This document shows, piece by piece, positions 1 through 11,813 of a DNA stretch of 64,000 bases. The notes under the pieces were generated by a model that had not been told where the DNA came from, did not search any database, and saw only the letters and a program-made list of their open reading frames with translations. The position numbers were made by a program, and so were the translations under genes. The stretch's first letter is position 1, and every line of letters begins with the position of its first letter. The DNA is from an uncultured beta proteobacterium. GTDB taxonomy: Bacteria > Pseudomonadota > Gammaproteobacteria > Burkholderiales > Burkholderiaceae_E. The stretch is from assembly GCA_903934295.1 (NCBI GenBank), contig CAIZNI010000020.1, positions 310,001-374,000 of the forward strand. Direction: 5' to 3'.

Positions 1-57
1 CGAGACAAGGCCTGCCGCACCGGCGGCACCGACGAATACACGACGGGAAGAATCCAT
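1..57 (-). CDS. Partial 5' end of a Tat-exported protein gene
   Basis: Only the first 19 codons are in the window; the gene reads off the left edge. The peptide starts MDSSRRVFVGAAGAAG, a twin-arginine (SRRVFV) n-region followed by a hydrophobic Ala/Gly stretch, so the product is probably exported folded by the Tat system. A GGAG ribosome-binding site sits about 9 bases upstream of the ATG. It is divergent from the allophanate hydrolase operon, and the palindrome at 117-128 lies about 60 bases upstream of its start, so shared control with that operon is plausible. The mature protein is not visible and its function cannot be told. Confidence 0.65.
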   Translation of the reverse strand, partial: MDSSRRVFVGAAGAAGLVS

Positions 58-116
58 GAGAAAGCTCCAGAAAGGGATTTGAGGGGCGAGGCGGGCTGCC
101 GACAGGGCGTCGCCAG

Positions 117-128
117 CTTGTGTACAAG
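117..128. promoter_or_regulatory. Putative GntR/FCD operator O1
   Basis: CTTGTGTACAAG is an inverted repeat with one mismatched pair (5 of 6 positions symmetric). Its core, TTGTGTACAA, resembles the TTGTATACAA-type sites bound by several FCD-subfamily GntR regulators. It lies about 60 bases upstream of the minus-strand Tat gene. The regulator encoded at 9769-10476 is the obvious candidate ligand. The assignment is inferred from symmetry and context. Confidence 0.45.
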
Positions 129-374
129 ACCGGACGCAAGATTCTTGCCAGCGGGAGACCCGCGGGAAAACCGCCACCGCGCCCGCCATCGCGGTGCACC
201 GGCGCACGCCACCCAACCGGCAAGCGCACCAAATCCGTGCCTCATCGGCACGACTTCCGTGCATTCGCCTCGAACCCCACCGCATCCGCGTGCCCACCGA
301 CAGGACACACCGCGACACCGCCCCCTCTGGACCAGCCATCGGCGCCCACCCCCTGGCACGCAGCTTGCATTCGA

Positions 375-388
375 TCTTGTATTCAAGA
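375..388. promoter_or_regulatory. Putative GntR/FCD operator O2
   Basis: TCTTGTATTCAAGA is a 14-base inverted repeat with one mismatched central pair. It shares the TTGT..nCAA core of the site at 117-128. It lies 20-33 bases upstream of the chosen start of the allophanate hydrolase gene, where a bound repressor would block transcription or initiation. The linked FCD-type regulator at 9769-10476 is the likely binder. Confidence 0.5.
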
Positions 389-407
389 ATGGATGCCGCA
401 GGAAACC

Positions 408-2090
408 ATGGACTCGGTCTGGATCGAAAAAATCACCGCCGAGGCGGGCGCCACCGCGCAACCCGCCGCCACCGGCCCGCTCGCCGGACGCCGCTTCGCC
501 GTCAAGGACAACATCGACGTCGCGGGCGTGCCGACCACCGCCGCGTGCCCGGCGTTCTCCCATGTACCCGCGCAGTCGGCGACCGTGATCGAGCGGCTGC
601 TGCAGGCCGGCGCCTTGGTCGCGGGCAAGACCAACATGGATCAGTTCGCCTGCGGGCTGAACGGGTCGCGCTCGCCCTATGGCACGCCGGCCAACAGCTT
701 CGACGCGCGTCTGGTGCCGGGCGGCTCGAGTTCCGGCTCGGCGGTGGCGGTCGCGCGTGGCGAAGTCGACTTCGCGCTGGGCACCGACACCGCAGGTTCG
801 GGACGCGTGCCGGCGGCGATGAACAATCTGGTGGGCCTGAAGCCGACGCGCGGCCTGATCAGCAACCGCGGCGTGGTGCCGGCCTGCCGGTCGATCGACT
901 GCGTGTCGATCTTCACCACCACCGTGGCCGAGGCGGTCGACGTGCTGATGGCCGCCGCCGCTCACGACCCGCTCGACCCCGGTTCGCGGGCCCTGCGTCT
1001 GGACCCGGCGTTCTTTCCCCCGGTCTTTCGCTTCGGCGTGCCGCGCACCGAAGACCTCGAGTTCTTTGGCGACGACGCGTCGCGCGAGGCCTTCGCGCAG
1101 GCCTGCGCCCGCCTGCAACGGCTCGGCGGCACACTGGTGGCGATCGACTTCCGGCCGTTCGCGCAGGCGGCCGCGATGCTTTATGAAGACGCGTTCGTGG
1201 CCGAGCGCTACGCCGGCATCCGCGACTTCTTCGATGCCCACGCCGACAGCCAGCCCGAGGTCTTCGACCCGGTGGTGCGCGCCATCATCGCGTCGGGCCG
1301 GCGCTTCAGCGCCGCCGACTGGTGCCAGGCCACCGACCGCCTGGGGCTGCTGCGCCAGCGCTGCGATGCCGCCCTCGCGAGTGTCGATGTGCTGGTGCTG
1401 CCCACCACCCCGACGCTGATCAGCGTCGAGGCGATGCGCGCCGAGCCGGTCGAGATGAACCGCCGGCTGGGTCATTACACGAACTTCGTGAACCTGCTCG
1501 ACTATGCGGCCCTGGCGGTGCCCGCCTGCCTGCGGGCCGACGGTCTGCCCTTCGGCATCAGCTTCATCGGCCCGGCGGCCAGCGACCTGCGCCTGGCCGA
1601 CATCGGTCAGCGCTTCCACCACGACACCGGCCTGAGCGCCGGCGCCACCGGCAAGCCGCTGGCACCGGCCCGCGACATCGTCCGACCGGCCGGCAGCACG
1701 GTGACGCTCGCGGTGGTCGGCGCCCACCTGTCGGGCATGCCGCTCAACGGCCAGCTGCGCGAACGCGGCGCGCGCTTGCTGCGCACCGCGCGGACCGCGC
1801 CCGAGTACCGGCTATTCGCGCTCGAAGGCACGGTGCCCCCGAAGCCGGGCCTGCTGCGCGTGGCGCCGGAGCAGGGGCACGCGATCGCGCTCGAGATCTG
1901 GGAGATGCCCGTCGAGCACTACGGCTCGTTCGTCGCCCTGATCGGCGCGCCGCTGGGGATCGGCACCCTGCGCCTGGAAGACGGTGCCACGGTGCAGGGT
2001 TTCCTCTGCGAGGCGCTCGACACCACCACCAGTCCCGACATCTCCGCCTTCGGCGGCTGGCGTCACTTCATCGCCGCGCGCAAGACCTGA
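408..2090 (+). CDS. atzF: Allophanate hydrolase (AtzF type)
   Basis: Amidase-signature enzyme predicted to hydrolyse allophanate to ammonia and CO2, the last step of cyanuric acid/biuret-type nitrogen salvage; cytosolic. The 560-residue protein has the Ser-cisSer-Lys triad: K33 in FAVKDN, GGSSSGS at 105-111, and nucleophile S131 in TDTAGSGRVP. A C-terminal domain (about 420-560) carries the GAHLSGMPLN and GFLCEA motifs of allophanate hydrolases, so it is not a generic amidase. AtzF is about 605 residues, so the length fits. The start at 408 is preceded by AGGA; an ATG at 393 in the same frame is possible. It is the first gene of the operon, separated from atzG-atzE-atzH by a transporter. A urea-amidolyase-linked role is the main alternative. 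Confidence 0.9.
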   Translation: MDSVWIEKITAEAGATAQPAATGPLAGRRFAVKDNIDVAGVPTTAACPAFSHVPAQSATVIERLLQAGALVAGKTNMDQFACGLNGSRSPYGTPANSFDARLVPGGSSSGSAVAVARGEVDFALGTDTAGSGRVPAAMNNLVGLKPTRGLISNRGVVPACRSIDCVSIFTTTVAEAVDVLMAAAAHDPLDPGSRALRLDPAFFPPVFRFGVPRTEDLEFFGDDASREAFAQACARLQRLGGTLVAIDFRPFAQAAAMLYEDAFVAERYAGIRDFFDAHADSQPEVFDPVVRAIIASGRRFSAADWCQATDRLGLLRQRCDAALASVDVLVLPTTPTLISVEAMRAEPVEMNRRLGHYTNFVNLLDYAALAVPACLRADGLPFGISFIGPAASDLRLADIGQRFHHDTGLSAGATGKPLAPARDIVRPAGSTVTLAVVGAHLSGMPLNGQLRERGARLLRTARTAPEYRLFALEGTVPPKPGLLRVAPEQGHAIALEIWEMPVEHYGSFVALIGAPLGIGTLRLEDGATVQGFLCEALDTTTSPDISAFGGWRHFIAARKT

Positions 2091-2169
2091 CGACCGCGGC
2101 GGCCCGACGCCGCCGCGCCCCCCTGTCCCCTGTCCCGACACGCCCATCACCAACGCCTGAGAGGTCTTC

Positions 2170-3765
2170 ATGAGAACCCGGATCTTCACCGCCCTTGTCA
2201 CGGCCGCCCTGCTGACCGCGGGCGCCGCCGTCGCGCAGGACGCGCGCAAGGAAACCCTGGTCGTGGCCAATGAATTCGGCCCGAACATGCTCGACATCCA
2301 CGGCGTGGGGGCCAACCGCCCCGCTTACGGCGTGGCCTGGATCGCCTACGACCGTCTGATGTCCCACGGCAAGAAGACCTTGCCCAACGGCGTCACCACC
2401 TACGACTACACCAAGCTCGAGCCCGAACTGGCCGAGCGCTGGGAGGTCGCCAAGGACGGCAGCGGCGTCACCTTCTACCTGCGCAAGACCGCGAAATTCC
2501 ACGACGGCTCGCCGGTCACCGCCAACGACGTCAAATGGAGCTTCGAGCGCGCGCTGGCGATGGGCGGCTTCCCGCAGTTCCAGATGAAGGCCGGCTCGCT
2601 GGAGAAGAACGAGCAGTTCGAGGTGGTCAACGACCACACCTTCCGGGTCAAGTTCCTGCGTCCCGACAAGATGACCATGCCCAACATGGCGGTGCCGGTC
2701 GCTTCGATCTACAACTCGACGCTGGCCAAGAAGAACGCGACCGCCGACGACCCGTGGGCTGCCACCTGGCTCAAGAACAACACCGCCGGCGGCGGCGCCT
2801 ACAAGGTCGAGAGCTTCAAGCCCGGCCAGGAAATCGTCTACACCCGCTTTGACGACTGGAAGAACGGTCCGCTGCCCAAGCTCAAGCGCATCATCCAGCG
2901 CGACGTGCCCTCGGCCGGCAACCGGCGCGCGCTGCTGCTGCGCGGCGACATCGACATGACCTACGACATGCCCCCGAAGGACTTCGGCGAACTCGCCGCC
3001 GACACCGGCAAGCTCAAGGTGGCCTCGGTGCCGATCGAGAACGCCCTGTTCTATCTCGGCATGAACGTGACCAAGCCGCCGTTCGACAAGGTCAAGGTTC
3101 GCCAGGCCCTCGCCTACGCGGTGCCCTACGACAAGATGTGGGACGCCGCGATGTACGGCCGCGGCGTGAAGCTGTACGGCGGATCCAACGAGCCCAAGAC
3201 GATCGCCTGGCCGCAGGCCCATGGCTACAAGAACGACATCGCGCGCGCCAAGCAGCTGCTCGCCGAAGCCGGGTTCCCCAACGGCTTCGAAACCACCCTG
3301 TCGTTCGACCTGGGCGGCGCCACCATCAGCGAACCGATGGCGATCCTGATGCAGGAATCGCTCGCCCAGATCGGCATCAAGGCACAGATCAACAAGGTGC
3401 CCGGCGCCAACTGGCGGGCCGCCCTGCTCAAGAAGGACATGCCGCTGATGCTCAACCGGTTCGGCGGCTGGCTGAACTACCCGGAGTACTTCTTCTACTG
3501 GTGCTATCACGGCCAGAACGCGGTGTTCAACACGATGTCCTACCAGGACCCCGAGATGGACAAGTTCATCACCAACGCGCGCTTCGCCGAGAGCAAGGCC
3601 ATCTACGACGACCAGGTGAAGGCGATGATCCGCAAGGCCAACAACGACGTGCCGCGGGTGCCGCTGTTCCAGCCGACGCAGGACGTGGCGATGCAGAAGA
3701 ACATCAGCGGCTTCACCTACTGGTTCCACCTGCAGCCCGACTATCGGCAGCTGGTGAAGAACTGA
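2170..3765 (+). CDS. ABC transporter substrate-binding protein, SBP_bac_5 (peptide/nickel) family
   Basis: Periplasmic receptor of the Dpp/Opp-type importer encoded here. The 531-residue precursor has a clear Sec signal peptide (residues 1-22, AVA cleavage site). Family 5 features follow, including the conserved FHDGSPVTANDVKWSFERA segment around residue 105 and NxALFYLGMN in the middle. GAGGT precedes the ATG. Family 5 receptors bind oligopeptides, nickel, opines and other small polar solutes, so the ligand cannot be read from the sequence. Lying between atzF and atzG-atzE-atzH, it probably captures a nitrogen-rich compound (ureido, biuret-like or amide) that the amidases degrade. That substrate assignment is inference. 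Confidence 0.9.
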   Translation: MRTRIFTALVTAALLTAGAAVAQDARKETLVVANEFGPNMLDIHGVGANRPAYGVAWIAYDRLMSHGKKTLPNGVTTYDYTKLEPELAERWEVAKDGSGVTFYLRKTAKFHDGSPVTANDVKWSFERALAMGGFPQFQMKAGSLEKNEQFEVVNDHTFRVKFLRPDKMTMPNMAVPVASIYNSTLAKKNATADDPWAATWLKNNTAGGGAYKVESFKPGQEIVYTRFDDWKNGPLPKLKRIIQRDVPSAGNRRALLLRGDIDMTYDMPPKDFGELAADTGKLKVASVPIENALFYLGMNVTKPPFDKVKVRQALAYAVPYDKMWDAAMYGRGVKLYGGSNEPKTIAWPQAHGYKNDIARAKQLLAEAGFPNGFETTLSFDLGGATISEPMAILMQESLAQIGIKAQINKVPGANWRAALLKKDMPLMLNRFGGWLNYPEYFFYWCYHGQNAVFNTMSYQDPEMDKFITNARFAESKAIYDDQVKAMIRKANNDVPRVPLFQPTQDVAMQKNISGFTYWFHLQPDYRQLVKN

Positions 3766-3805
3766 TCGTCCGACGCGCAACCACCCTGTCCGACGAAGGT
3801 CACCC

Positions 3806-4819
3806 ATGCTGGTCCTGATTCTCAAACGCCTGCTGCTGTCGGTGCCGACCCTGGCCGGCATCGTGGTGGTGACTTTCGCCCTCACCCGGCTCTTGCCGGG
3901 GGATCCGGCCGCCTACTTCGCCGGCAACGCCGCCAGCGTCGAGGCGGTCGAACAGATCCGTCAGAAGCTCGGTCTGAACCAGCCGTTGGCCACCCAGTTC
4001 CTGCGCTATGTGCAGGAACTGGCGGTGGGCAACTGGGGCCAGTCCCTGTCGACCGGGCAGCCGGTGGCGCATGAAATCGCCACCCGCCTGCCAGCCTCGC
4101 TGGAGCTGACGCTGATCGCGCTGGTGCTGTCGCTCGCCGTCTCGATCCCGCTCGGGGTGCTGGCCGCCACACGGCCCGGCTCCTGGGTCGACCAGCTGTG
4201 CCGGGTGGTGACCACCGCCGGCGTCTCGCTGCCGGTCTTCTTCACCGGCCTGTTGCTGTCTTTCGTCTTCTATTTTCTGCTTGGCTGGGCACCCTCCCCG
4301 CTGGGCCGCATCGACCCTTACGTCACCGCGCCAGCCACGGTGACCGGCTTCTATCTGATCGACAGCCTGATCGCGCGCGACGGCGCGGCCTTCGTGTCCA
4401 GCGCCAAGCAGCTGATCCTGCCGGCGATCACGCTGGCCCTGTTCGTGATGGCGCCGGTGGCGCGCATGACGCGTGCCTCGATGCTGGGGGTGCTGTCGGC
4501 CGACTTCGTGCGCACCGCACGCGCCATGGGCCTGTCGCGCACCCGGGTGCTCTACGGTTATGCGTTCCACAACGCCTTCCTGCCGGTGCTGACCACGATC
4601 GGCATGGTGTTCTCGTTCATGCTGGGCGCCAATGTGCTGGTCGAGAAGGTGTTCGCCTGGCCCGGCATCGGCTCGTTTGCAGTCGAGTCGCTGGTGGCCA
4701 GCGACTACGCGCCGGTGCAGGGCTTCGTGCTGACGATGGCGATCCTGTACGTGGCCCTGAATCTGGTGATCGACCTGCTGTATCTGGTGATCGATCCGCG
4801 CGTCACTGTGGAAGGCTGA
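3806..4819 (+). CDS. ABC transporter permease, DppB/OppB type
   Basis: Inner-membrane permease of 337 residues with about six transmembrane segments. It carries the DppB hallmark after the first helix (LGLNQPLATQFLRY followed by LAVGNWGQSL) and a cytoplasmic EAA-like loop (RTARAMGLSRTRVL) that docks to the ATPases. It starts 40 bases after the binding-protein gene with AAGG upstream, and is followed one base later by the partner permease. It forms the channel for the solute delivered by the binding protein at 2170-3765. Confidence 0.93.
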   Translation: MLVLILKRLLLSVPTLAGIVVVTFALTRLLPGDPAAYFAGNAASVEAVEQIRQKLGLNQPLATQFLRYVQELAVGNWGQSLSTGQPVAHEIATRLPASLELTLIALVLSLAVSIPLGVLAATRPGSWVDQLCRVVTTAGVSLPVFFTGLLLSFVFYFLLGWAPSPLGRIDPYVTAPATVTGFYLIDSLIARDGAAFVSSAKQLILPAITLALFVMAPVARMTRASMLGVLSADFVRTARAMGLSRTRVLYGYAFHNAFLPVLTTIGMVFSFMLGANVLVEKVFAWPGIGSFAVESLVASDYAPVQGFVLTMAILYVALNLVIDLLYLVIDPRVTVEG

Positions 4820-4820
4820 C

Positions 4821-5711
4821 ATGACCGCCGCGAACCTCTCCGCCCCCGCTCGCCCCGGCGAGCCCTCGACCTCCCTGTGGTCGCACACCCGCTATGTGAT
4901 CGGCGAGAACCCGCTGACCGCGGTCGCCTTCCTGCTGTTTGCGCTGTTCCTGGTGATGGCGGTGGCCGGCCCGTGGCTGGCGCCTTACGATCCGCTGGCC
5001 ACCAACGCCACGGCCGCGATGCAGCCGCCGTCGATGAAGCACTGGTTCGGCACCGACGCGCTGGGCCGCGACGTGCTCTCGCGGGTGATGGTGGCCACCC
5101 AGGTCGACTTCGGCATCGCGCTGTCGGCGGTGCTGCTGTCGTCGGTGGTGGGCATCGGCCTGGGCATGCTGGCCGGCTATCACGGCGGCCTGTTCGACCG
5201 GCTGGTCGGCCGGGTGGTCGACACCATCATGGCGTTTCCGCTGTTCGTGCTGGCGATGGGCATCGTCGCCGCGCTGGGCAACACGGTGGCCAACATCGTG
5301 CTGGCCACCGCGATCATCAACCTGCCCTTCTACCTGCGGGTGGCGCGCGCCGAGACCAACATCCGGCGTGACGCGGGCTTCATCGAGGCGGCGCGCGTCA
5401 CCGGCAACAGCACGACACGGGTGCTGATCTTTCACATGCTGCCCAACATCCTGCCGCCGGCCATGGTGCAGATCTCGCTGAACATGGGCCTGGCGATCCT
5501 GAACTGCGCGGGGCTGTCGTTCATCGGCCTGGGTGTTCGTCCACCGCAGCCGGAATGGGGAATCATGGTCGCCGAAGGCGCGCAGTACATCGTGTCCGGC
5601 GAATGGTGGGTGGCGCTGTTCCCGGGCGCGGTGCTGATGCTGGCGGTGTTCTGCTTCAACCTGCTGGGCGACGGCCTGCGCGACATCATCGACCCGAGGC
5701 GCCGCACATGA
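4821..5711 (+). CDS. ABC transporter permease, DppC/OppC type
   Basis: Second inner-membrane subunit of the importer, 296 residues. It shows the DppC-type motif GTDALGRDVLSRV after the first helix and the EAA loop IEAARVTGNSTTRVL. The N-terminus (about 30 residues, Pro/Ser-rich) is cytoplasmic, followed by helix 1 (ENPLTAVAFLLFALF). Its stop overlaps the start of the next gene (ATGA at 5708-5711), so translation of permease and ATPase is probably coupled. Confidence 0.93.
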   Translation: MTAANLSAPARPGEPSTSLWSHTRYVIGENPLTAVAFLLFALFLVMAVAGPWLAPYDPLATNATAAMQPPSMKHWFGTDALGRDVLSRVMVATQVDFGIALSAVLLSSVVGIGLGMLAGYHGGLFDRLVGRVVDTIMAFPLFVLAMGIVAALGNTVANIVLATAIINLPFYLRVARAETNIRRDAGFIEAARVTGNSTTRVLIFHMLPNILPPAMVQISLNMGLAILNCAGLSFIGLGVRPPQPEWGIMVAEGAQYIVSGEWWVALFPGAVLMLAVFCFNLLGDGLRDIIDPRRRT

Positions 5712-6670
5712 ACCCGCTGCTTCGAATCGACGGACTCTCGATGGAGTTCCGCACCCGCAGCGGCACCGTGTCGGCGCTGCAGCGGATTTCACTCGCGATC
5801 GAAAAAGGCGAGACGCTCGGACTGGTCGGCGAGAGCGGCTCGGGCAAGTCGGTGCTGTCGTACGCGATCATGGGCATCCAGGATCCGGCGGCGCGCGTCA
5901 CCGCCGGGTCGGTGCAGTTCGCCGGCATGGACCTGCTGCACATGCCCGAGCGCCAGATGGCCGACATCCGGGGACGCGAGATCGCGATGATCTTCCAGAA
6001 CCCGCGGGTCGCGCTGAACCCGATCCGTCGCGTCGGCGACCAGATCGGCGACGTGCTGGCGCGTCACACCACCACCCTGGCCCGCGATCGCGAGGCGCGC
6101 GCGGTGGCGATGCTGCAGGCGGTGCGCATTCCCGACCCGCAACGCCGCGCCCGCGCCTATCCCTTCGAGATGTCGGGCGGCCAGTGCCAGCGGGTGATGA
6201 TCGCGATGGCGCTCGCCGCCAACCCGGCACTGCTGATCGCCGACGAGCCCACCACCGGCCTGGACGTGACCACCCAGGCGGCGATCATGCGGCTGCTGCG
6301 CGAAGCGGCGACCGACCGGCAGATGGCCACGGTGCTGATCACCCACGACCTGGCGCTGGCCAGCGAAAGCTGCGACCGGATCGCGGTGATGCATGCCGGT
6401 CACATCGTCGAGATCGCCCCCACCCGCGAGTTGTTCACGCGCCCGCGCCATCCCTACACCGCGTCGCTGATCCGCTCGGTGCCGGCCAACGCGGCGTCGC
6501 TGGCCGACCTCGATGCGATCCCCGGATCGCTGCCCGACCTGCGCTCGCCGGACCTGCCGGCCTGCCGCTTCGCCGATCGCTGCTCGCGCGCCCAGGCCCT
6601 GTGCCGCACGCAAACCCTGCCCACTGTCCTGGAAGGTGAATCGATGGTCGCCTGTCACTTCCCGCTATGA
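5708..6670 (+). CDS. ABC transporter ATP-binding protein, DppD/OppD type
   Basis: Cytoplasmic ATPase, 320 residues, one of a heteromeric pair energising the importer. Walker A is GESGSGKS at 41-48; the signature is MSGGQCQR; Walker B is LLIADEPTTGLD; the switch histidine lies in TVLITHDL. The C-terminal oligopeptide/dipeptide extension has the Cys-containing CRFADRC...ARAQALC pattern typical of DppD/OppD (4Fe-4S or structural cysteines). Both ends use 4-base ATGA overlaps with neighbours, so the start at 5708 is secure. Confidence 0.93.
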   Translation: MNPLLRIDGLSMEFRTRSGTVSALQRISLAIEKGETLGLVGESGSGKSVLSYAIMGIQDPAARVTAGSVQFAGMDLLHMPERQMADIRGREIAMIFQNPRVALNPIRRVGDQIGDVLARHTTTLARDREARAVAMLQAVRIPDPQRRARAYPFEMSGGQCQRVMIAMALAANPALLIADEPTTGLDVTTQAAIMRLLREAATDRQMATVLITHDLALASESCDRIAVMHAGHIVEIAPTRELFTRPRHPYTASLIRSVPANAASLADLDAIPGSLPDLRSPDLPACRFADRCSRAQALCRTQTLPTVLEGESMVACHFPL

Positions 6671-7659
6671 CCTACGCCCCCCTGCTGCGAGTCGACCACC
6701 TGGCCAAGCGCTTTCCGATGCGCAAGGGCCTGCTGCGCCGCGGCGCGCCCTCCTTCCTGCACGCGGTCGACGATGTGAACCTGACGATCGGCGCGGGCGA
6801 ATGCGTCGGTCTGGTCGGCGAGTCGGGCTGCGGCAAGTCGACGCTGGTGCGGGTGCTGGCGCGCCTGCTCGACGCCACCGACGGCGTGATCGATTTCGAT
6901 GGCGAGAACCTCGCCACGGTGCCGGCCGGCCGCTTTGCCGGCCACCCGCGCCGGCGCGAGTTGCAGGTCGTCTTCCAGGACCCGACCGAATCGCTGAATC
7001 CGCGCTACACCGGCTTCGACTGCATCGCGGAGCCGCTGCGCCTGCTGGCCGGCATCACCGAGGCGGGCGAACTCGCGCGTCGCGTCGAGGAGGCGGCCAC
7101 CGAGGTCGGGCTGCCGCTGGCGCTGCTCGGGCGTTATCCGCACCAGCTCTCGGGCGGCCAGAAGGCACGGGTCAACATCGCCCGGGCCGTCGCGGTGCGC
7201 CCGCGCCTGATGATCCTGGACGAGCCGACGGCGGCGCTGGATGTGTCGGTGCAGGCGATCGTGCTCGACCTGCTGGCGGACCTGCGCCAGCGCCACGGCC
7301 TGTCCTATCTGTTCGTGTCGCACGACCTCAATGTGGTGCGGCTGATGTGCGACCGGGTGATGGTGATGTACCTGGGCCGCATCGTCGAATCCGGTCCGGC
7401 TGCCGAGGTCTTCGCCAACCCGGCGCATCCCTACACCCGGCTGCTGGTCGATGCCCTGCCCCGTCTGGGCGTGCCGGCGCCGCCGGTGGAATTGCCGGCC
7501 GGCGAGCCGGGCAGCCCGATCGACCCCGATCCCCAGCAATGCCGCTACGCTTCGCGCTGCCCGAAGGCGCATTCGAAATGCTCCGAGATCTCGCCCAGCC
7601 TGACCAGCGCCGGCACCGCCCGCGAGGTCGCCTGCCACTTTCCCCTGACAATGGCGTGA
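6667..7659 (+). CDS. ABC transporter ATP-binding protein, DppF/OppF type
   Basis: Second ATPase of the importer, 330 residues. Walker A GESGCGKS at 51-58, signature LSGGQKAR, Walker [13 protein letters not shown] and H-switch LFVSHDL are all intact. The C-terminal extension [14 protein letters not shown] again carries the oligopeptide-family cysteine pattern. ATGA overlap with the preceding gene shows translational coupling. With the two permeases and the binding protein it makes a complete five-gene importer, so transport and hydrolysis are encoded in one unit. Confidence 0.93.
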
Positions 7660-7690
7660 TCCGCTGACCGAACCCGCGCAGGAGAACCGC

Positions 7691-7723
7691 ATGAACCCTC
7701 ACCCTGGCAAGGCCGCCTCATGA
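7691..7723 (+). CDS. Possible 10-codon leader peptide coupled to atzG
   Basis: ATG at 7691 is preceded by a strong CAGGAGA ribosome-binding site and encodes MNPHPGKAAS. Its stop overlaps the atzG start as ATGA (7720-7723). The strong site of the region thus belongs to this mini-ORF, while atzG itself has only a weak AAGG. This looks like translational coupling, or it may be a relic of a duplicated start, since both peptides begin MNP. It is too short to recognise. Confidence 0.35.
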   Translation: MNPHPGKAAS

Positions 7724-7911
7724 ACCCGACCCTCGTCCACTACGCCGATGCGATGCTCGCGCTGCACGGCTTCGACCTCACCCCCGAGGCGCGCGAAGCG
7801 GTGCTGCGCAACATCGAACTCAGCGCGTCGATCGCGGCCGTCTTCCTGGACCACGATCTGGGGCCCGAAGACGAGATGGCCCCGGTGTTCCGGCCGGTGA
7901 GCGCGCCATGA
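7720..7911 (+). CDS. atzG: AtzG-like small subunit (DUF4089)
   Basis: A 63-residue, mostly helical acidic protein resembling AtzG, the small partner that binds and stabilises the amidase AtzE, much as GatC does with GatA. It has the family's pattern of a short YxxAMLxLHGF helix, a PEAREAVLxNIE helix and a C-terminal tail. Its stop overlaps the atzE start (ATGA at 7908-7911), as expected for a stoichiometric complex. Known biology: AtzE is inactive or unstable without AtzG. The start overlaps the stop of a 10-codon leader. Confidence 0.85.
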   Translation: MNPTLVHYADAMLALHGFDLTPEAREAVLRNIELSASIAAVFLDHDLGPEDEMAPVFRPVSAP

Positions 7912-9308
7912 GCGGCCCGACCCCGGGCGACAACACCGCCATCGCGATCGCGCAGCGCATCCGCAACGGCGAGACCAGCGCACGCAGCGTCACCGAGCAG
8001 ACGCTGGCCGACATCGCGGCGCGCAACGACCAGTCGAACTCATTCACCCTGGTGACCGGCGAGCGCGCGCTTGCGCAGGCTGACGCCATCGATGCCGCGA
8101 TCGCGCGCGGCGAGCGCCTGCCGCCGCTGGCTGGCGTGCCCTTCGCGGTCAAGAACCTGTACGACATCGACGGTGAGGTCACCGCCGCCGGGTCGGTGGT
8201 GAACCGCTCGCTGCCCCCGGCCGGCGCGGATGCGGTGCTGGTCGAGCGCCTGACGCAGGCCGGCGCGGTGCTGGTCGGCGCGCTCAACATGGACGAATAC
8301 GCCTACGGCTTCTCCACCGAGAACACCCACTACGGTCCGGCCCGCAACCCGCATGACCGCAGCCGCATCGCCGGCGGCTCGTCGGGGGGCTCGGCCACCG
8401 CGGTCGCCGATCGGCTGGTACCGCTGAGCCTGGGCACCGACACCAATGGCTCGATCCGGGTGCCGGCCTCGCTGTGCGGCGTGTTCGGCCTGAAGCCCAC
8501 CTACGGTCGGCTGTCGCGGCGCGGCTCGTTTCCCTTCGTCGCAAGCCTCGATCACGTCGGCCCCTTCGCCACCACGCTGGACGACCTGGCCCTGTGCTAC
8601 GACCTGCTGCAGGGCCCGGATCCGCGCGATCCGGCCTGCGCGCAGCGCGCGCCCGAACCGGTCAGCGATGCGCTGGACGGCAGTATCGCCGACCTGCGCA
8701 TCGCGCGTCTGGGCGGGCACTTCGACAAGTTCAGCGGCGCGCTCGCCAGCCGCGCGGTCGCGATCGCCTGCGAGGCCCTGGGCGCGACCCAGACCCGGGA
8801 ATGGCCGATGGCAGGCATGGGCCGCGCCGCCGCGTTCATCATCACCAGCGCCGAGGGCGGCGCCCTGCACCTGCCCAACCTGCGCACTCGGTATGACGAC
8901 TTCGAGCCGCTGTCGCGCGACCGATTCATTGCCGGTTGCCTGCTGCCGGCCGCCTGGTACCTGAAGGCCCAGCGGGTGCGCGAGGTGTATGCCCACGCGG
9001 TCGCCCGGACGTTCAGCGACACCGACATCTTCATCACCGCCGCCACGCCGCTGCCGGCACCGGTGATCGGCACCGAGACGATCGACATCAACGGCATCAC
9101 GCTGCCGTCGCGTGCCAGCATGGGCTTGCTCACCCAGCCGATCTCGTGCATCGGCCTGCCGGTGCTGGCGGCACCGATCCCGGTGGCCGGTGAACTGCCG
9201 ATGGCGATCCAGATCATCGCCGCCCCGTGGCGCGAACGCGATGCGTTCCGGGTGGCGGCGGCGCTGGTGCGCGCCGGCGTGTGCCGGGCGCCCGTGCCGC
9301 CCGCCTGA
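7908..9308 (+). CDS. atzE: AtzE-like amidase (1-carboxybiuret hydrolase family)
   Basis: Catalytic amidase of 466 residues, predicted to deaminate 1-carboxybiuret to 1,3-dicarboxyurea or to act on a related carboxylated urea. The amidase-signature triad is intact: K82 in FAVKN, GGSSGGS at 156-162, and nucleophile S182 in TDTNGSIRVP. The SLCGVFGLKPTYGR and FDHVGPF-like (SLDHVGPFA) segments match AtzE and GatA relatives. It follows atzG with a 4-base overlap and precedes atzH. It differs clearly from the atzF amidase of the same operon. The exact substrate is uncertain because no cyanuric acid hydrolase is present here. Confidence 0.85.
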   Translation: MSGPTPGDNTAIAIAQRIRNGETSARSVTEQTLADIAARNDQSNSFTLVTGERALAQADAIDAAIARGERLPPLAGVPFAVKNLYDIDGEVTAAGSVVNRSLPPAGADAVLVERLTQAGAVLVGALNMDEYAYGFSTENTHYGPARNPHDRSRIAGGSSGGSATAVADRLVPLSLGTDTNGSIRVPASLCGVFGLKPTYGRLSRRGSFPFVASLDHVGPFATTLDDLALCYDLLQGPDPRDPACAQRAPEPVSDALDGSIADLRIARLGGHFDKFSGALASRAVAIACEALGATQTREWPMAGMGRAAAFIITSAEGGALHLPNLRTRYDDFEPLSRDRFIAGCLLPAAWYLKAQRVREVYAHAVARTFSDTDIFITAATPLPAPVIGTETIDINGITLPSRASMGLLTQPISCIGLPVLAAPIPVAGELPMAIQIIAAPWRERDAFRVAAALVRAGVCRAPVPPA

Positions 9309-9317
9309 TGCGCGGCG

Positions 9318-9347
9318 CTGACCAACCCTGACCGACACTGACCGACC
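9318..9347 (+). repeat. Three 10-bp direct repeats upstream of atzH
   Basis: The spacer between atzE and atzH contains CTGACCAACC, CTGACCGACA and CTGACCGACC in tandem. They lie 26 bases before the atzH start. They may simply be slippage-derived, and no function is evident. Confidence 0.45.
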
Positions 9348-9372
9348 GACCCTGGACCCTGGAGCCCTCGAC

Positions 9373-9747
9373 ATGCAGATCAATCTCGCACCGGTGGTGG
9401 CGGAAGTCACCGAAGCCTTCGCCCGCTACGAGCAGGCGCTGGTGAGCAACGATGTGGCGGTTCTCGACGAACTGTTCTGGAACAGTCCGCACACCCTTCG
9501 CTACGGCGCGGGCGAGAACCTCTACGGCTACGACGAAATCAAGGCGTTCCGGGCCGGGCGGCCGGCGGCCGGCCTGTCGCGCGAAGTGCTGCGCACCGTC
9601 ATCACCACCTACGGCACCGACTTCGCCACCGCCAACATCGAGTTCCGCCGCGAGGGCGCGACGCGCACCGGCCGCCAGAGCCAGACCTGGGCCCGCACCG
9701 CCGACGGCTGGCGCGTGGTGGCCGCCCACGTCAGCCTGCTCGGATGA
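9373..9747 (+). CDS. atzH: AtzH-like protein (DUF3225, SnoaL superfamily)
   Basis: A 124-residue cone-fold protein of the NTF2/SnoaL superfamily. AtzH of Pseudomonas sp. ADP converts 1,3-dicarboxyurea, the AtzE product, to allophanate, the AtzF substrate. Its reported catalytic residues Tyr22 and Arg46 are 24 apart; here Y19 (FARYEQAL) and R43 (HTLRYG) have the same spacing and context, so both seem retained. GGAG lies about 10 bases before the ATG. Position between atzE and the regulator fits the atzG-atzE-atzH gene order. This closes the link from AtzE to the AtzF-like enzyme at the head of the operon. Confidence 0.88.
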
Positions 9748-9768
9748 CCGACTGAGACCCGGCCGACC

Positions 9769-10476
9769 ATGGGCGCGCCCGACGCTGCATCCCCCCTTCA
9801 CGCCTCGCTGGCCGACACGGTCTATGCGCGGGTGAAGGACGACATCGCCGAGTTCCGGCTGGTGCCCGGCGACCGCTTCACCGAGAACGAGGTCGCGACC
9901 CGGCTGGGCGTGTCGCGCACGCCGGTGCGCCAGGCGCTGTTTCGGCTCGAGCGCGAAGGCTTCGTGCAGGTGCATTTCCGCTCGGGCTGGCAGGTGCAGC
10001 CCTTCGACTTCGAGAAGTTCGAGCACCTCTACGACCTTCGGGTGGTGCTGGAAACCACCGCGGCGCAGCGGCTTTGCGAAGCCGCGCCCGACCGCATCGA
10101 CCGCAGCCGGCTCGATGCCCTGCAGGCCTTCTGGCTGGTGGCCCGGCCCGAGCGCAAGCTCGACGCCCGACTGGTCTCGCAACGCGACGAGGAATTCCAC
10201 GCCACCCTGGTGGCGGCCGCCGGCAACCCCGAACTGGCGCGAGTCCACCGCGAAGTGACCGACCGGATCCGCATCGTGCGCCGGCTCGACTTCACGCAGG
10301 TCGAGCGGGTGCAGTCCACCTACGATGAACACAGCCAGATCCTGCGCGCGGTGCTGCGCCGACGCACCGAGCAGGCGGTGATGCTGCTGCGCAGTCACAT
10401 CGAGGCCAGCAAGTCCGAGGTCCGCAAGCTGACCCTGCACAACCTCTATCTCGCCCGGCAGCCCGCGCGCGGCTGA
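9769..10476 (+). CDS. GntR-family transcriptional regulator, FCD subfamily
   Basis: A 235-residue regulator. The N-terminal winged helix-turn-helix spans about 15-75 (FTENEVATRLGVSRTPVRQALFRLEREG). The C-terminal FCD effector domain (about 85-215) has the usual acid/His pattern: EEFHATLVAAAGN, EHSQILRA and LLRSHIEASK, which generally bind a metal and a carboxylate ligand. It closes the transport/amidase operon 21 bases after atzH, so it is probably autoregulated and senses the imported compound or a carboxylated intermediate. The palindromes at 117-128 and 375-388 are its best candidate operators. FCD regulators are usually repressors. Confidence 0.9.
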   Translation: MGAPDAASPLHASLADTVYARVKDDIAEFRLVPGDRFTENEVATRLGVSRTPVRQALFRLEREGFVQVHFRSGWQVQPFDFEKFEHLYDLRVVLETTAAQRLCEAAPDRIDRSRLDALQAFWLVARPERKLDARLVSQRDEEFHATLVAAAGNPELARVHREVTDRIRIVRRLDFTQVERVQSTYDEHSQILRAVLRRRTEQAVMLLRSHIEASKSEVRKLTLHNLYLARQPARG

Positions 10477-10637: not shown

Positions 10638-11813
10638 ATGAATCACCGCATGCGCTTCGGTATCTTTCTGGCACCTTTCCACAAGCCCGGCATCAATCCG
10701 ACGCTGGCACTGGAGCAGGATCTCGAGCTGATCGCCTGGCTCGATCGCTGCGGCTACGATGAAGCCTGGTGCGGCGAGCACCACTCGGCGGGCTCCGAGA
10801 TCAGCGCCTCGCCCGAGATCCTGATCGCAGTGGCTTCCCAGCGAACCCGCAGCATCCGGCTGGGCACCGGCGTGGTCAGCGTCTCGTATCACAACCCGCT
10901 GTGGGTGGCTGAGCGCATCGTGCAGCTCGATCACCTGACCCGGGGGCGCGTGATGCTGGGCCTGGGGCCGGGCTCACTGCCCAGCGACGGAATCATGGTC
11001 GGCATCTCGCAGTCGCAGACCCGCGGCCTGCTCGAGGATGGCCTGGGCGTGATCATGAAGCTGCTCACCACCGATGAGCCGGTGACGTTTCGAAACGATC
11101 GCTGGGACCTGCGCGAGGCGCGTCTGCATCTGCGGCCCTACTCGAACCCGCTGTTCGACATCGCGGTGCCGGCGGTCGCCTCGCCCACCGGGCCGAAGCT
11201 GGCGGGCATGCATGGCGTGGGACTGCTCTCGATCGGGGCGACCACCGCCGCGGGTTTCGATGCGCTGGCGCTGCACTGGGATGTGATGGAGGCGCAGGCC
11301 CGCCACTACAAGACCCGCGTGGATCGGAACAAATGGCGGCTGGTGGGCATGGTGCATTGCGCCGAGACCATGGACCAGGCGTATCGCGACGTCGAGTACG
11401 GCATCGAGCAGTGGTTCGATTATTTCCAGACGGTGGCCGCCTTTCCGCAGATGGCGGTGCCCGGCAGCAACATCAAGGAAATGGTCTCCTTCGTGAACGA
11501 CTCGGGCTTCGGCGCGATCGGCACGCCCGACATGGTCAATGCGCAGATCGACCGCCTTTGGAAGCAGTCCAACGGCGGCTTCGGCGCCTACCTGATGCTG
11601 GCGCACAACTGGGCCAATTTCGACGCCACCCGCAAGAGCTACGACCTGATCGCGCGCCATGTGTTTCCGCGCTGGCAGGGTCAGGGCGCCTCGACGATCG
11701 ACGCTGCCGACCGGGCCCGCGCCACGCGTCCGGCACTGGCCGAGGTGCATGCGAAGGCGGTCGAAGTGGCCACCCAGCGATTCGCCGAGGAAACCGCACG
11801 CCGGGCGGGCTGA
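10638..11813 (+). CDS. Luciferase-like flavin-dependent monooxygenase (LLM), limonene monooxygenase-like subgroup
   Basis: A 391-residue TIM-barrel flavoprotein predicted to use FMNH2 and O2 to oxygenate a small organic substrate. Recognisable segments are MRFGIFLAPFH at the N-terminus, GYDEAWCGEHHS around residue 40, and RLGTGVVS...RIVQLDHLTRGR around 75-110. AGGAG precedes the ATG at 10638. It follows the regulator by 160 bases; that gap contains a degenerate operator-like TTGTAGACAT at 10526-10535, so co-regulation with the amidase operon is possible but unproven. A paralogue of the same subgroup lies at 52297-53526. The substrate is unknown. Confidence 0.85.
   Translation: MNHRMRFGIFLAPFHKPGINPTLALEQDLELIAWLDRCGYDEAWCGEHHSAGSEISASPEILIAVASQRTRSIRLGTGVVSVSYHNPLWVAERIVQLDHLTRGRVMLGLGPGSLPSDGIMVGISQSQTRGLLEDGLGVIMKLLTTDEPVTFRNDRWDLREARLHLRPYSNPLFDIAVPAVASPTGPKLAGMHGVGLLSIGATTAAGFDALALHWDVMEAQARHYKTRVDRNKWRLVGMVHCAETMDQAYRDVEYGIEQWFDYFQTVAAFPQMAVPGSNIKEMVSFVNDSGFGAIGTPDMVNAQIDRLWKQSNGGFGAYLMLAHNWANFDATRKSYDLIARHVFPRWQGQGASTIDAADRARATRPALAEVHAKAVEVATQRFAEETARRAG

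Follow-up and report, generated by a model that had tools for sequence, protein, structure and literature searches.

What supplies the substrate of an atzG-atzE-atzH gene set that stands in an operon without the ring-opening hydrolase AtzD? The question is raised by a ten-gene operon (positions 408-10476) in a 64,000-nucleotide stretch of DNA from an uncultured beta proteobacterium, hereafter the window, which corresponds to C20:310001-374000 of a 72-contig draft genome (4.62 Mb, 98.5% complete). This operon and an adjoining gene set diverge from each other, and homology and gene context make it likely that the two, as halves of one whole, form a regulon for scavenging nitrogen from triuret and biuret, with two routes leading from carboxybiuret to allophanate.

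The divergent half begins at window base 57 and extends outside the window (genome C20:302575-310057; upstream locus L006), encoding, in order, the binding protein bmpS, two BPD_transp_2 permeases, a formamidase (564 bits, cut-off 406), BiuH, an ATPase with two ABC domains, and TrtA. BiuH exceeds the cut-off of the NCBIfam equivalog NF050097 (432 bits, cut-off 370), under which TrtA falls at 242, and scores 417 bits against Rhizobium BiuH (6azo). TrtA (L006:2575-3333) matches 6xix at 291 bits and 6xj4/6xje at 287 bits; 6XJ4 and 6XJE are TrtA structures, and six positions discriminate TrtA from BiuH (PMC7948467). The triad D24/K129/C162 is present in TrtA together with all six discriminating residues (F35, N41, A134, E160, Y187, I205), and the letters of BiuH at these positions are Y, Y, S, D, T and V, all as published. 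Among 57 TrtA and BiuH rows, which include three copies (L019, two of L024), the TrtA letter occurs at five of the six positions in all 32 TrtA rows and A134 in 30 of them, the pair from the window genome being counted; among the 25 BiuH rows, L032 deviates at four positions and another row at a single one, and a further row is truncated. Among solved structures bmpS matches best to 6pi5, an "atrazine periplasmic binding protein"; bmpS itself is 64-73% identical to bmpS of TrtA loci and 87% identical to that of G210, a genome of the same genus.

For the window operon, all ten + strand open reading frames, their families and their close spacing (junctions of +79, +40, +1, -4, -4, +60, -4, +64 and +21 nt, in order) bear out the original prediction of ten co-directional, tightly joined genes, with coordinates and names in agreement (Table 1). 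AtzF (749.5 bits, cut-off 511) is the sole allophanate hydrolase above the curated cut-off in the whole genome; its start is placed at ATG 408, which AGGAAA precedes, and translation could also begin at the in-frame ATG at position 393. The start of the DppD-type ATPase is placed at 5708, the longest open reading frame beginning at 5555. K82, S158 and S182 of AtzE, presumably the Lys-Ser-Ser triad of the amidase signature, are conserved in at least 47 of 48 AtzE rows, and the best solved match (553 bits) is 6c62, listed as biuret hydrolase, which we take to be AtzE. AtzH scores 180 bits against AtzH 6bjt and 169 bits against the uncharacterised 2rcd. With positions mapped from the alignment, all nine residues listed for the published arginine-rich AtzH pocket are intact, Tyr22 and Arg46 included (PMC6219798). 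After the FCD regulator gene, on the same strand, lies a luciferase-like monooxygenase gene (window 10638-11813) with a counterpart in the same-genus locus L011 and, among the other compared loci, just one weak match (L069).

Table 1. Features of the window operon and of the region upstream of it (window positions)
Feature	Position	Strand	Basis
bmpS 5' end, BMP-family periplasmic binding protein	1..57	-	first gene of divergent set
CTTGTGTACAAG, proposed operator, bmpS side	117..128	.	near-palindrome
CTTGTATTCAAG, proposed operator, atzF side	376..387	.	near-palindrome, ends 20 nt 5' of AtzF start
AtzF, allophanate hydrolase, amidase plus C-terminal domain	408..2090	+	Amidase plus AH_C; TIGR02713
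SBP_bac_5 periplasmic binding protein	2170..3765	+	family profile
DppB-type permease, BPD_transp_1	3806..4819	+	family profile
DppC-type permease, BPD_transp_1	4821..5711	+	family profile
DppD-type ATPase, ABC_tran/oligo_HPY	5708..6670	+	family profile
DppF-type ATPase, ABC_tran/oligo_HPY	6667..7659	+	family profile
AtzG-like small subunit	7720..7911	+	PF13318 39.4 bits, cut-off 24
AtzE, predicted 1-carboxybiuret amidohydrolase	7908..9308	+	TIGR02715 653 bits, cut-off 425.75
AtzH, DUF3225/HpxZ family	9373..9747	+	PF11533 208 bits; NF033625 211 bits (cut-off 135)
GntR/FCD regulator	9769..10476	+	family profile

In the proposed pathway, triuret and biuret would be taken up by the BMP-type importer, the Dpp-type importer or both, and TrtA would convert triuret to 1-carboxybiuret and ammonia. 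AtzE, together with AtzG, would then deaminate carboxybiuret to 1,3-dicarboxyurea, which AtzH would decarboxylate to allophanate; biuret, whether imported or arising from the decay of carboxybiuret, would be converted to allophanate by BiuH, and AtzF would degrade allophanate to ammonia and CO2. A TrtA next door fits AtzG-AtzE-AtzH because its product, carboxybiuret, which has a half-life of ~20 min (PMC7948467), is the substrate of AtzE and AtzG. The earlier idea that the operon serves to degrade a biuret-like compound that is linear from the outset is supported, and this compound can be given a name: the adjoining TrtA would make carboxybiuret from triuret. The idea that a peptide-type importer replaces the ring-opening enzyme finds no support: TrtA takes that place, and a BMP-type importer stands beside it.

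The two halves may also be regulated together. Between them lie two proposed operators, which are the only sites in the 64 kb within two mismatches of CTTGTATACAAG (0.11 expected). The same-genus locus L059 has both sites at matching places, with the bmpS-side site identical and the atzF-side site reading CTTGTATCCAAG. A repeat scan of the intergenic stretch did not return these sites, because their arms are short. The motif CTTG-N4-CAAG, recognised by eye in the window and L059 prior to counting, was tallied after 8 of 140 loci had been dropped as duplicates or near-duplicates, and several of the loci that carry it are close relatives. Among the 52 loci with an FCD gene, it is present before AtzF in 22 of 38 cases and before bmpS in 12 of 31, before TrtA in none of 29 and before AtzE in none of 48, with 15 occurrences across the other 965 kb. 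The FCD regulator is probably the protein that acts at this pair of CTTG-N4-CAAG sites, binding them and thereby controlling the two halves together.

We surveyed 399 genomes of the order, the window genome included, taking as TrtA-grade any match of at least 230 bits, a line set at a gap in the scores; the tallies draw on the best row per genome, some second copies and rows on the AtzE contig, and the omitted rows, inspected by eye, change no count. AtzE occurs in 47 genomes, a TrtA-grade gene in 51 and both in 30 (Fisher 9e-20, phylogeny ignored). In 17 of the 47, the distance from AtzE to a TrtA- or BiuH-type gene is at most 1.5 kb (the AtzE-adjacent gene being BiuH-type in 2 of these 17), and in 20, spanning nine families, it is at most 16 kb. 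At the level of named loci, 78 AtzE loci were counted (L100 and L103 having been dropped from 80), many of them cut by contig ends: TrtA or BiuH is found in 36, AtzD in 2 and a Dpp importer in 11, and AtzF, AtzE, AtzH, TrtA and BiuH are all present in 23, on a single strand in 20. L057 has the order FCD-DppFDCB-TrtA-ATPase-BiuH-permeases-bmpS-AtzH-AtzE-AtzG-SBP5-AtzF on one strand, and L087 (Curvibacter) and L090 (Caenimonas sedimenti) have the same gene set, co-directional and in a different order. In L017 (G284) and L019 (G029), which have near-identical stretches in common, BiuH rather than TrtA lies directly 5' of AtzG-AtzE, with TrtA on a separate contig.

The gene arrangement is already known; the substrate proposal is made here. 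Esquirol 2018 described beta-proteobacterial clusters of an allophanate hydrolase, often an ABC importer, and then atzG-atzE-atzH, in the same order as here and with ABC transporters and amidases noted downstream, and left the substrate open (PMC6219798). That paper pre-dates TrtA, and the link to TrtA and BiuH and the shared proposed operator are added here. The Herbaspirillum/Rhizobium triuret pathway likewise brings TrtA, BiuH and AtzF together, with carboxybiuret as the TrtA product; there, carboxybiuret is decarboxylated to biuret, by TrtB or spontaneously (PMC7948467), whereas the window genome supplements these genes with an AtzG-AtzE-AtzH branch, a Dpp-type importer, a formamidase and an FCD regulator. 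In nitrifiers, a BMP/nucleoside-type importer is reported next to genes of this kind; the abstract of that paper lists trtA, biuH and atzH as triuret/biuret genes, although atzH is named nowhere else in it and the text refers to atzF (PMC12625717). Operons combining trtA with atzGEH are not reported in the accessible parts of PMC7948467 or PMC12625717, where AtzE is mentioned for comparison in phylogenies or as the enzyme of the pADP type.

Several observations weigh against the triuret/biuret proposal. The Fisher values take no account of phylogeny, and several loci are closely related (e.g. Variovorax). TrtA/BiuH and AtzD are both missing from nine of the 47 AtzE genomes, so at least one further source of substrate for AtzG-AtzE-AtzH must exist. 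Three of these nine are among the 12 Dpp-linked genomes (G349, G263 and G175, the last 89% complete), and the nearest AtzE rows from outside the genus (G152, G250) lie in AtzF-AtzGEH-FCD clusters of genomes that also lack TrtA/BiuH and AtzD. Given the parallel BiuH route, AtzG-AtzE-AtzH is not strictly required for triuret. As for the operators, CTTG-N4-CAAG also occurs in the 80 loci with no visible FCD gene (before AtzF in 4 of 32 cases, before bmpS in 2 of 21; 18 in 1.3 Mb), and L059, which together with the window was where the motif was first recognised, is among those loci, with the motif before both AtzF and bmpS. Genome-wide, CTTGTNNNCAAG is not over-represented: it occurs at 10 distinct places, including the two described here, and the reversed control gives 50 hits.

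The alternative that survives best, a possible one that we rate clearly below the triuret/biuret proposal, is that the operon is the downstream half of a cyanuric acid pathway, in which a hydrolase encoded elsewhere opens the ring and AtzG-AtzE-AtzH and AtzF complete the degradation. The original prediction described the operon as lacking AtzD and called for a search of the rest of the genome for AtzD/barbiturase or biuret hydrolase. The absence stands for the operon, which thus does not qualify as a cyanuric acid operon (atzDGEHF), and falls for the genome, where both enzymes turned up: three AtzD/barbiturase-family genes lie on contigs C41 and C71, and BiuH adjoins the operon. The C41 gene probably encodes a cyanuric acid hydrolase, its product scoring 438 bits against cyanuric acid amidohydrolase 4bvq and 290 against an entry named barbiturase, with 61% identity to AtzD of plasmid pADP-1. 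Across the survey, AtzD is found in 24 of 399 genomes, 18 of them among the 47 with AtzE as opposed to 6 of the 352 others (Fisher 6e-14, phylogeny ignored), and it shares a contig with AtzE at a distance of at most 17 kb in 4 of the 47 (236 bp in G169; 5-17 kb in G286, G097 and G058). Linkage argues the other way, AtzD being unlinked here and far rarer in the named AtzE loci than TrtA or BiuH. The cyanuric acid route is compatible with the triuret/biuret proposal, since AtzD and TrtA both make carboxybiuret.

The two C71 genes (L008 7050-11030, L009 9507-13117) have other neighbours, an amidase and an NtaA/DmoA-type monooxygenase in one case and a RutB-like hydrolase (287 bits, below the 378 cut-off) in the other, and possibly belong to pyrimidine or barbiturate routes.

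It is unlikely, in our estimate, that the Dpp importer instead supplies another linear ureide that AtzE-AtzG, AtzH and AtzF degrade without TrtA or AtzD. The three Dpp-linked genomes in which TrtA/BiuH and AtzD are both missing speak for such a substrate; by eye, from the first 60 residues per open reading frame, no other hydrolase was evident beside those operons, nor any further candidate in the flanks of the Dpp-only clusters L022, L036 and L037. The binding protein at 2170-3765 is below the cut-off in all 10 NCBIfam families listed (best GsiB, 132.7 of 594 bits; 111.6 bits against the DppA equivalog, cut-off 1005), its best solved match is AgaA 6hlx (143 bits), and the NCBIfam and PDB searches gave it no ligand assignment. 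Against this, TrtA and BiuH adjoin the operon in its own genome, with the proposed operator common to both halves, and 7 of the 11 named Dpp-linked loci contain TrtA or BiuH.

We regard as still less probable an oxalurate pathway of the HPX type, with AtzG, AtzE and AtzH acting as HpxX, HpxY and HpxZ on oxalurate from purine breakdown. The triad of Klebsiella hpxXYZ (L152) is homologous (AtzE 54%), 2rcd nearly equals 6bjt as a match of AtzH, and AtzH exceeds the NCBIfam HpxZ cut-off, yet AtzH of pADP-1 is annotated likewise. The best solved matches, however, are 6c62 and AtzH 6bjt, an entry named HpxY not being among those listed, and the neighbours TrtA, BiuH and AtzF are not needed for oxalurate. 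Beside the Klebsiella genes the annotation places an aminotransferase, the regulator HpxU and an ABC transporter of the amino-acid type; within 8 kb of them, nothing gave a separate match to AtzF, TrtA or BiuH. No HpxW or purine-catabolic neighbours were recognised by eye among the called open reading frames of L006 and the window, HpxW not having been searched for with a profile. The L152 record (CP125156.1, 5.37 Mb) is described as a plasmid, although its size suggests a chromosome.

AtzF alone is common to the urea amidolyase and triuret/biuret pathways, and the notion that it serves a urea amidolyase (urea carboxylase plus allophanate hydrolase), its neighbours being incidental, was rejected: no urea carboxylase exceeds the cut-off in the draft genome, where the best of 26 partial matches reaches 532 of 1304 bits, and the co-directional operon is conserved in other loci.

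The triuret/biuret proposal also bears on the origin of the atzDGEHF operon of pADP-1 (Pseudomonas sp. ADP). That plasmid likewise has AtzG, AtzE, AtzH and AtzF, with a BMP-type importer set alongside on the opposite strand, and it has AtzD in place of TrtA/BiuH and a LysR gene in place of FCD. Its BMP importer was considered as an orthologue of bmpS and ruled out, the two binding proteins being merely 36% identical. Among the sampled loci (the ones closest to the query alignment, with a few plasmids added), AtzG, AtzE and AtzH of pADP-1 are closest in sequence to a Comamonadaceae triuret cluster: L090 is their best match (58%, 76% and 72%), tied in score by L081 for AtzH. In a 63-row AtzE tree, pADP-1 joins Caenimonas koreensis, a Ramlibacter metagenome-assembled genome and Caenimonas sedimenti (support 98/97), and TrtA is present in all three loci. 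The other two enzymes have best matches elsewhere, AtzF in L120 (54%) and AtzD in L109/L021 (64%), and in a tree of AtzF the position of the pADP-1 protein lacks support. The trees omit the 8 duplicate or near-duplicate loci and L154, as well as AtzE pieces with at most 380 aligned residues or with stops.

On balance, we lean slightly towards a history in which pADP-1 acquired atzG-atzE-atzH from a chromosomal Comamonadaceae triuret operon whose carboxybiuret was made by TrtA. In this history AtzD, which like AtzF had another origin, took over from TrtA as the carboxybiuret source, and beta-proteobacterial AtzG-AtzE-AtzH would be mainly a triuret set that runs parallel to BiuH under an FCD regulator. 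That atzGEH may be older than the cyanuric acid operon is already in print (PMC6219798), and the trees and best matches suggest the same for the pADP-1 copy. To this extent the ancestral role put forward in the original prediction gains support; triuret is not supported as the role of the very oldest AtzE, as four basal cyanobacterial rows have no TrtA/BiuH within 10 kb, which counts against a general triuret claim. So do the at least 15 changes of the TrtA label and the limited sampling. On the 125-row tree the AtzD label requires at least 4 changes (gains or losses). Labels follow the fetched locus rather than the genome, so that TrtA does occur in some genomes behind "none" rows (L015, which is the copy of G264 that was retained; L071, a cut contig).

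Other combinations of these genes were also seen. In G079, G166 (L064), G178 (L067), G255 (L065) and G344, TrtA and an AtzH-family gene are separated by 13-56 bp; these AtzH-family proteins cannot use an AtzE product, because none of the five genomes has an AtzE match at E 1e-80, and they may decarboxylate carboxybiuret to biuret, the published role of TrtB. L066 (G171) carries at 2-9345 consecutive AtzF-AtzH-BMP importer-FmdA-BiuH-ATPase-TrtA-FCD genes, with an AtzD-family gene ~0.8 kb past TrtA on the same contig, in a genome with no AtzE match. The Achromobacter loci L107, L125 and L132 have AtzE-FCD-AtzH clusters with no TrtA, BiuH or AtzF match in the locus, and CTTG-N4-CAAG occurs there apart from the matched genes; these possibly represent the type that Esquirol 2018 links to a monooxygenase.

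The analysis puts forward a substrate for atzGEH clusters that lack atzD, which are widespread and whose substrate the 2018 paper left open, predicts a regulon with named sites, and offers a history for part of the herbicide-degrading plasmid pADP-1. Triuret is an oxidation product of uric acid and an impurity of urea fertiliser (PMC7948467), and this may explain how enzymes familiar from the breakdown of man-made triazines come to be common in nature.

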